Assembly (NCBI GenBank): GCA_021772055.1
Contig: JAETNR010000002.1
Location: forward strand, 62,001 to 126,000
Length of the DNA stretch: 64,000 nucleotides
Reading direction: 5' to 3'
Source of the DNA: Blautia sp.
GTDB taxonomy: Bacteria > Bacillota > Clostridia > Lachnospirales > Lachnospiraceae
Positions within the stretch are counted from its first letter, which is position 1, and each line of letters begins with the position of its first letter. This document shows, piece after piece, positions 51,461 to 51,680 of the stretch. A program made the translations under genes and the position numbers. The notes below the pieces were generated by a model. That model did no database searches, was not told the DNA's origin, and worked only from the letters and a program-made list of their open reading frames with translations.

Positions 51461-51499
51461 AAAAAACAGCAGCCGCACCTTTCTCAAGGCCGGCTGCTG
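51461..51499 (-). terminator. Terminator of the arginine unit
   Basis: CAGCAGCCG (51467-51475) pairs exactly with CGGCTGCTG (51491-51499), followed on the minus strand by TTTTTT. It lies about 180 bases beyond the argD stop because an element is inserted between them. Confidence 0.9.
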
Positions 51500-51520
51500 T
51501 GCGCATCGCTCTTTTTATTG

Positions 51521-51680
51521 ATTCTTTCGTAACTATTCAGTAGATAATATCCCGCGAAGTGTTTTCATGCATCTATGCATGAAAATCCCGAGACATACAA
51601 GCCAAAATTCCTTCACCGAAGGTGATTTCTAATGAATTTTGGCTCGTAACTGTGAAGGTACTGAACAGTTACATTCTTTC
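51521..51680. mobile_element. 144-bp MITE-like structured element with 8-bp target duplication
   Basis: The element 51529-51672 has terminal inverted repeats GTAACTATTCAGTA and TACTGAACAGTTAC (13 of 14 match). It is bounded on both sides by exact ATTCTTTC (51521-51528 and 51673-51680). Inside are two further hairpins: TTTTCATGCAT-2-ATGCATGAAAA near 51562-51586, and GCCAAAATTC ... GAATTTTGGC with a CACC-GAA-GGTG core near 51601-51643. No open frame is present. The right repeat ends one base before the argD stop codon, so the element sits in the 3' untranslated part of the arg mRNA. Confidence 0.65.

Follow-up and report, generated by a model that had tools for sequence, protein, structure and literature searches.

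The window, by which we mean the whole 64,000-nucleotide stretch of Blautia sp. DNA analysed here, carries an arg operon (argC-argJ-argB-argD) whose last gene is followed directly on its 3' side by a 144-bp element at 51529-51672, set between exact 8-bp copies of ATTCTTTC. A likely terminator of the arg transcript comes after the element, and feoB is located further along, beyond that terminator side. The features of the region are as follows.

51466..51500, minus strand: hairpin then T run, likely arg transcript terminator (from fold and sequence; coordinates approximate)
51521..51528, no strand assigned: ATTCTTTC, left member of the exact 8-bp target duplication
51529..51672, minus strand: type-A miniature element, 144 bp, with its left end at 51672 as set by the 27-bp palindrome
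51529..51542, plus strand: terminal inverted repeat GTAACTATTCAGTA
51549..51554, minus strand: second CGGGAT of the direct repeat around hairpin 2 (first CGGGAT at 51585-51590; read from the sequences)
51558..51589, minus strand: hairpin 2, with paired changes across copies; missing from a 108-bp copy (L004) in the same genome
51596..51648, minus strand: hairpin 1 with a small inner hairpin, with paired changes across copies
51646..51672, minus strand: 27-bp terminal palindrome GTAACTGTTCAGTACCTTCACAGTTAC, elsewhere also found alone between 8-bp duplications
51659..51672, minus strand: terminal inverted repeat GTAACTGTTCAGTA, 13/14 identical to the other end
51673..51680, no strand assigned: ATTCTTTC, right member of the exact 8-bp target duplication, adjoining the argD stop codon
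51681..52883, minus strand: argD (acetylornithine/succinylornithine transaminase; TIGR00707), last gene of argC-argJ-argB-argD

Read along the minus strand, positions 51521-51680 consist of GAAAGAAT, the 144-bp element starting GTAACTGTTCAGTACCTTCACAGTTAC and ending TACTGAATAGTTAC, and GAAAGAAT again. The initial annotation had described an element of this length with an exact 8-bp target duplication, 14-base terminal inverted repeats of which 13 bases match, two internal hairpins, and no open frame. Its anatomy held throughout: the duplication agreed letter for letter, the terminal repeats were located at 51529-51542 and 51659-51672, and the hairpins were recovered as internal inverted repeats (51562-51572/51575-51585 and 51596-51613/51631-51648). 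Additionally, no ORF of at least 90 aa was listed over the element, in which 144 bp would allow at most 48 codons. The placement of the right duplication copy against the argD stop codon, argD being on the minus strand, and of the left copy before the arg terminator was likewise borne out, the latter by a GC-rich hairpin and T run at approximately 51466-51500. This hairpin was not listed by a terminator scan that covered 51466-51500, probably because its stem has a bulge. The element folded better than all 200 dinucleotide shuffles (200/200), with z-scores of -5.5 on the plus strand and -9.0 on the minus strand, which is that of the arg mRNA. No Rfam family reached its gathering threshold within the window, and around the element only four hits with E ≤ 1 were returned, all far below gathering scores.

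Searches of the same genome and of its relatives returned many matches to the element, so the sequence is not a once-only feature of the arg site. Its own genome contained 31 matches, and matches were present in 34 of 98 relative genomes (its own included), all from the same genus, with at most about eight candidates scored per genome. The 27-bp left end, allowing one mismatch at most, occurred in 20 of 299 genomes from the family, corresponding to 19 of 298 genera (again including its own), at up to 52 copies per genome, and a reversed-pattern control run on the same 299 genomes gave zero hits in every row. In exact form, the 27-bp left end was found in at least 119 stretches of named genomes, the hosts among the matches listed being Blautia, Oliverpabstia, Murimonas, Catenibacillus, and many other Lachnospiraceae, and it was found in no viral contig. 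A further subtype, B, is characterized by the left end GTTACTGTTCACTCC and in many copies has an interior common to that of type A; one sister genome of about 4.7 Mb contained 105 type-B left ends (≤2 mismatches; control 0), from which 30 loci were fetched. No comparable MITE was mentioned for Blautia or Lachnospiraceae in the titles and abstract openings of open-licence literature, and among the element's end sequences only the shortest string matched in that literature, in papers on subjects that are unrelated by title. To the extent of those titles and abstract openings, the family is one without a name in the open-licence literature searched, and the kind itself is already known.

Target duplications were common across these copies. 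Specifically, of 171 distinct type-A left ends (≤2 mismatches), 104 could be paired with a GTTAC right end across an 8-bp duplication, in which at most one mismatch was allowed, compared with a mean of 1.25 when duplications were permuted among copies. For type B the count was 36 of 58 left ends, with a control of 1.2 of 36. The duplications were exact in 76 of the 104 type-A and 22 of the 36 type-B copies, and flank comparison placed these at 103 and 36 separate insertion sites, respectively; a recognisable duplication was absent from 67 of the 171 type-A and 22 of the 58 type-B left ends. Most type-A copies fell into the class of at least 130 bp (n = 62) or into one of 27-28 bp (n = 31, of which 30 measured exactly 27 bp and one 28 bp), with 11 more at 42-109 bp, and copies of 132-145 bp with duplications accounted for 46 of 104 in type A and 27 of 36 in type B. 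The 42-bp form was rare outside the window's own genome: at ≤3 mismatches it had five matches in four of 64 genomes of the genus, two of the five being in the window's own genome, where four 42-bp copies with a target duplication were recognised.

We then examined whether sites occupied in the window's genome were empty in relatives, using the joined flanks of 13 of its copies as queries against nine chosen relatives and reading the 30 loci retrieved, a subset of the matches listed. A clean empty site was found at L299, where a single GATTTTAC corresponds to the site of a 53-bp copy (L017), and this was the sole letter-clean case among the 30 loci. The element was missing with a less clean junction at L317 (site L023), L300 (site L030), and L308 (site L091, shifted junction), and four relatives lacked it at site L002, also without a clean junction. 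Site L023 held about 540 bp of other sequence in another relative (L326), and several of the 13 sites had only a single flank in relatives. The expectation that empty sites with a single target copy would exist was borne out at one site of the family (that of L017, empty in L299); at the arg site itself, no allele with a single ATTCTTTC was found. The L017 copy itself, on contig C92, was inserted at a gene 3' end, and the GTAAC with which it begins creates a TAA stop codon immediately after the shared GATTTTAC, giving GAT TTT ACG TAA in place of GAT TTT ACA TAA (by eye, in the relative's frame). At the gap orthologous to the L002 copy, two loci of relatives (L311 and L322) carried remnants of other kinds, either short palindromes or B-like, which gives the impression of a gap that is hit repeatedly.

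Taken across genomes, these comparisons show that the same ends have inserted again and again at unrelated sites, each time between 8-bp duplications, and that some of those sites lack the element in relatives, and it is from such comparison that we infer movement of the family. We next considered which enzyme might be responsible. Comparing the terminal repeats with those of transposases that make 8-bp duplications, as had been proposed from the window's sequence, led to IS66 elements whose ends are of this type, one of them (L063) in the window's own genome. IS66 transposases (PF03050) were present in 28 of 60 genomes of the genus, and of 37 IS66 loci, seven had terminal repeats flanked by an exact 8-bp duplication, five with ends of the MITE type (L063, L112, L118, L119, and L120) and two with GTAAGCG ends; no such pairing of terminal repeats and duplication was found at the other 30, and some loci were cut by contig ends. 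With the larger piece of the L112 transposase as a family-wide query, matches were obtained in 14 of 299 genomes, and among the 16 loci read there, MITE-like ends with an 8/8 duplication were found only in L280 and, again, in the L063 element (as L283). This brought to six the IS66 elements of the genus and family that have such ends and exact 8-bp duplications. The Pfam domain DDE_Tnp_IS66 was recognised in L063, L119, L120, and both pieces of L112, in which the transposase is in two pieces, while L118 was also assigned by Pfam and L280 by its similarity to the L112 piece. L119 had a further ORF of 124 aa without a Pfam match.

The ends of these elements are GTAACTATTCAG in L112, GTAACAGTTCAG in L063 and L118, GTTACTTTTCAC in L119, and, at one end, GTTACTGTTCAC in L120 and L280. 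Over the first 12 nt, the type-A right end, which in the window is GTAACTATTCAGTA, was identical to both ends of the sister-species element L112 (12/12), while the type-A left end matched L063 and L118 at 11 of 12 positions. L120 and L280 each have one end that is identical over the same length to the type-B left end, and the B right end corresponded to this L120/L280 end in 17 of 36 copies (ending TGTGAACAGTAAC; first 12 nt GTTACTGTTCAC) and to the L119 end (GTTACTTTTCAC) in six of 36 (ending TGTGAAAAGTAAC). No transposase-bearing element with the exact type-A left end, or with both exact A ends, was found, and searches from the 171 type-A left ends (to 3.5 kb or the locus end, first match only) yielded no duplication-bounded element longer than 236 bp. 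In the window's own genome, L063 was the sole IS66 element seen with MITE-type ends proven by a target duplication, at 11/12 relative to the A left end.

We therefore infer, from end likeness together with duplication length, that the family was most likely moved by single-gene IS66 transposases resembling the ISBst12 group. According to PMC12898284, ISDge4, which its authors put in the ISBst12 group of IS66, was seen to transpose, has the ends GTGACTACTCAGCA/GTAACTGCTCAGCA with an 8-bp repeat, and is the first such case for the group. An 8-bp target duplication and terminal repeats of the GTAACTGCTCAGCA type are common to that group, as represented by this account of ISDge4 (PMC12898284), and to the family described here. 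The related intact IS66 elements seen here have one ORF with an IS66 transposase domain, whereas the 144-bp element carries zero genes; the ISBst12-like label of the former was judged by their single-transposase content and the similarity of their ends to those of ISDge4.

The family combines several properties expected of MITEs: its members are short and lack a transposase gene, have terminal inverted repeats and target duplications at independent sites, are multicopy with presence/absence variation, and share ends with putative autonomous elements (over the first 12 nt, 11/12 at the left end of type A and 12/12 at its right end and at either end of type B), in which a DDE_Tnp_IS66 transposase lies inside matching ends with an 8-bp duplication. 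On this basis we consider, with a probability of about 0.86, that the 144-bp element belongs to a MITE family present in Blautia and other Lachnospiraceae and moved in trans by an ISBst12-group-like IS66 transposase. The non-autonomous mobile element proposed earlier is thereby upheld: the family is multicopy, its members lie between target duplications, one site is empty in a relative, and its ends are of a kind also seen in IS66 elements. The transposase would act in trans on GTWACNNTTCA ends and join them to the target with an 8-bp stagger, inserting the element, and hairpin modules would later drop out when short repeats (AGTTAC, TTAC, CGGGAT) recombine with loss of the DNA between them, a process that would account for the 108- and 42-bp forms and probably for that of 27 bp. 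At the arg locus, the element would have landed between the argD stop codon and the terminator, lengthening the 3' untranslated region by 152 bp, which is apparently tolerated. Such a family would represent a high-copy gut-bacterial MITE tied to transposases whose movement is little documented (PMC12898284). As described in PMC3189936, MITEPsy1, which is tied to ISPsy2 (possibly IS5) and has a 4-nt duplication, is likewise short, non-coding, and multicopy with IS-like inverted-repeat ends and a target duplication; the present family differs in its IS66-type ends, 8-bp duplications, 27-bp terminal palindrome, and exchangeable hairpin modules.

The shorter forms are informative about how modules were lost. 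The 108-bp copy fits a deletion between the two CGGGAT repeats that flank hairpin 2. For the 27-bp copies we prefer in-place deletion between AGTTAC repeats, because 27 bp would hardly hold two ends. These copies do stand alone between 8-bp duplications, and one, L023, has the element-less relative L317. That the 27-bp terminal palindrome is itself mobile, as a tiny DNA-transposed unit, perhaps hairpin-moved, of which the larger forms carry exchangeable selected hairpins, appears improbable to us. The natural series of 144, 108, 53, 42, and 27 bp could show which parts of IS66 ends are needed.

The hairpins were evaluated across 23 of 73 full-length copies, hand-picked for a shared interior (21 of 46 type A and two of 27 type B). 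Their consensus comprised 41 pairs, of which 10 were changed on both sides, and 97.6% of cells were paired. The covariation score was 0.181, as against 0.076 in shuffled and at most 0.038 in slid versions; since the structure came from the very alignment on which it was scored, the comparison with slid versions is tilted in its favour. The strand that begins with the left end gave the more stable fold in 55 of the 73 full-length copies. Distant A subtypes kept two hairpins with otherwise different sequence (by eye), and in five B copies (L036, L338, L344, L354, and L357) hairpin 1 is swapped for an unrelated hairpin, CGCTTCGCGATGCACAGAATTTATGC...GCATAAATTCGCGC, with ends and linker kept, which is a modular exchange. 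The paired changes would favour maintenance of the hairpins, and both these and the unrelated hairpin in the same slot are what one would expect if the hairpins of a mobile element were also selected, beyond descent, as RNA or single-stranded DNA structures in transposition or in host transcripts. We regard such selection as a tentative possibility, on the less probable side. Template switching can correct and homogenise palindromes without selection, further pair types were not in excess of shuffles (454 of 500 reached the count), the copies are related, such that pair changes are not independent events, and hairpins are missing from the copies of 42-53 bp, which may, however, have arisen by later deletion.

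The same folding bears on whether the element is instead a functional, non-mobile RNA of the arg 3' untranslated region, acting in stability or termination. The strong fold on the arg mRNA strand, the pairs changed on both sides (10/41), and the position between the argD stop codon and the likely terminator would all suit such a role. However, this reading is largely refuted by the argD loci of relatives. An ArgD match was found in 59 of 60 genomes, and of 30 argD loci read, only the window's own had a type-A element; we accordingly rejected a conserved arg RNA element. Among the other 29, two held B-type material, two (L254 and L265) had loose end-motif matches that look like chance, and the sequence of one (L251) ends 59 nt past the stop codon. 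The initial annotation would have given way had the element occurred once only and always at the arg site, or had covariation pointed to a fixed function of the operon; the element occurs in many copies, is absent as type A from 29/29 of the other argD loci, and shows covariation as a property of the family rather than of the arg operon. Copies also occur in every gene arrangement, and Rfam returned no family at the gathering threshold, only the four weaker hits. We consider an arg-specific RNA very improbable. A role of the element in the arg genes has no support, an effect on arg expression is possible but likewise unsupported, and for the operon it looks like an ordinary tolerated insertion. 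A REP- or BIME-like palindrome moved by a Y1 (RAYT) transposase has, in our estimate, scarcely any chance of being correct. The family does resemble these repeats in being short, palindromic, mostly intergenic, and of high copy number, and REP and BIME are likewise high-copy intergenic hairpins, but it has IS66-like ends and commonly 8-bp duplications at them; Y1 enzymes are not known to make such duplications, nor are REP, BIME, or similar intergenic palindromic repeats known to have them.

As to the B-type material near argD, one sister-species locus (L247) had a B-type fragment near the stop codon, and in another (L273) a B-like copy, now degenerate, was located 134 nt downstream of argD. 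Both are apparently insertions separate from the window's copy.

The distribution of copies relative to genes did not bear out the suggestion that the element is a mobile structured RNA which travels at the 3' ends of mRNAs. Copies were located in co-directional, convergent, and divergent gaps, and only nine of 104 type-A copies were inside a called ORF (100-aa cut-off). At least 25 of 84 stop-to-element distances were 11 bp or less, and for that reason an element directly behind a gene, as at argD, is not unusual for the family. In co-directional gaps, types A and B together had 27 sense and 50 antisense copies (p = 0.012, ORFs of at least 100 aa, with gene calls made as simple longest-ORF picks), ratios at other ORF cut-offs being 26:51 and 24:48, and B alone giving a non-significant 8:12. 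This bias runs against the orientation at the arg site. It is consistent with a pyrimidine-leaning target on purine-rich coding strands: sense-strand gaps had base fractions of 0.34 A, 0.27 T, 0.23 G, and 0.16 C, while type-A targets leaned toward T (0.67) at duplication position 7 and C (0.57) at position 8, and a hand calculation from these figures predicted about 64% antisense, with 65% observed. A direct split by T at position 7 gave no difference in orientation (p = 0.80). We did not retain orientation as a sign of mRNA function, the bias being antisense, opposite to arg, and of about the size expected from target preference.

Finally, we noted other palindromes associated with the element. 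Hairpin loops of six type-A copies (L199, L210, L231, L242, L154, and L227) contained a further GC-rich palindrome (GTCTACGCTCCGCTTCGGTCGGCGC...GTTCAGCGCC, with variants), which in L016 adjoined the element instead; this repeat may likewise be small and mobile, with a preference for hairpin loops. Five copies (L147, L168, L178, L239, and L045) had some 80-90 bp of extra sequence inserted in the loop of hairpin 1, with inverted repeats of its own. Three of these (L147, L168, and L178) were on Oliverpabstia contigs, and L045 and L178 shared flanks, representing one site in two genomes.
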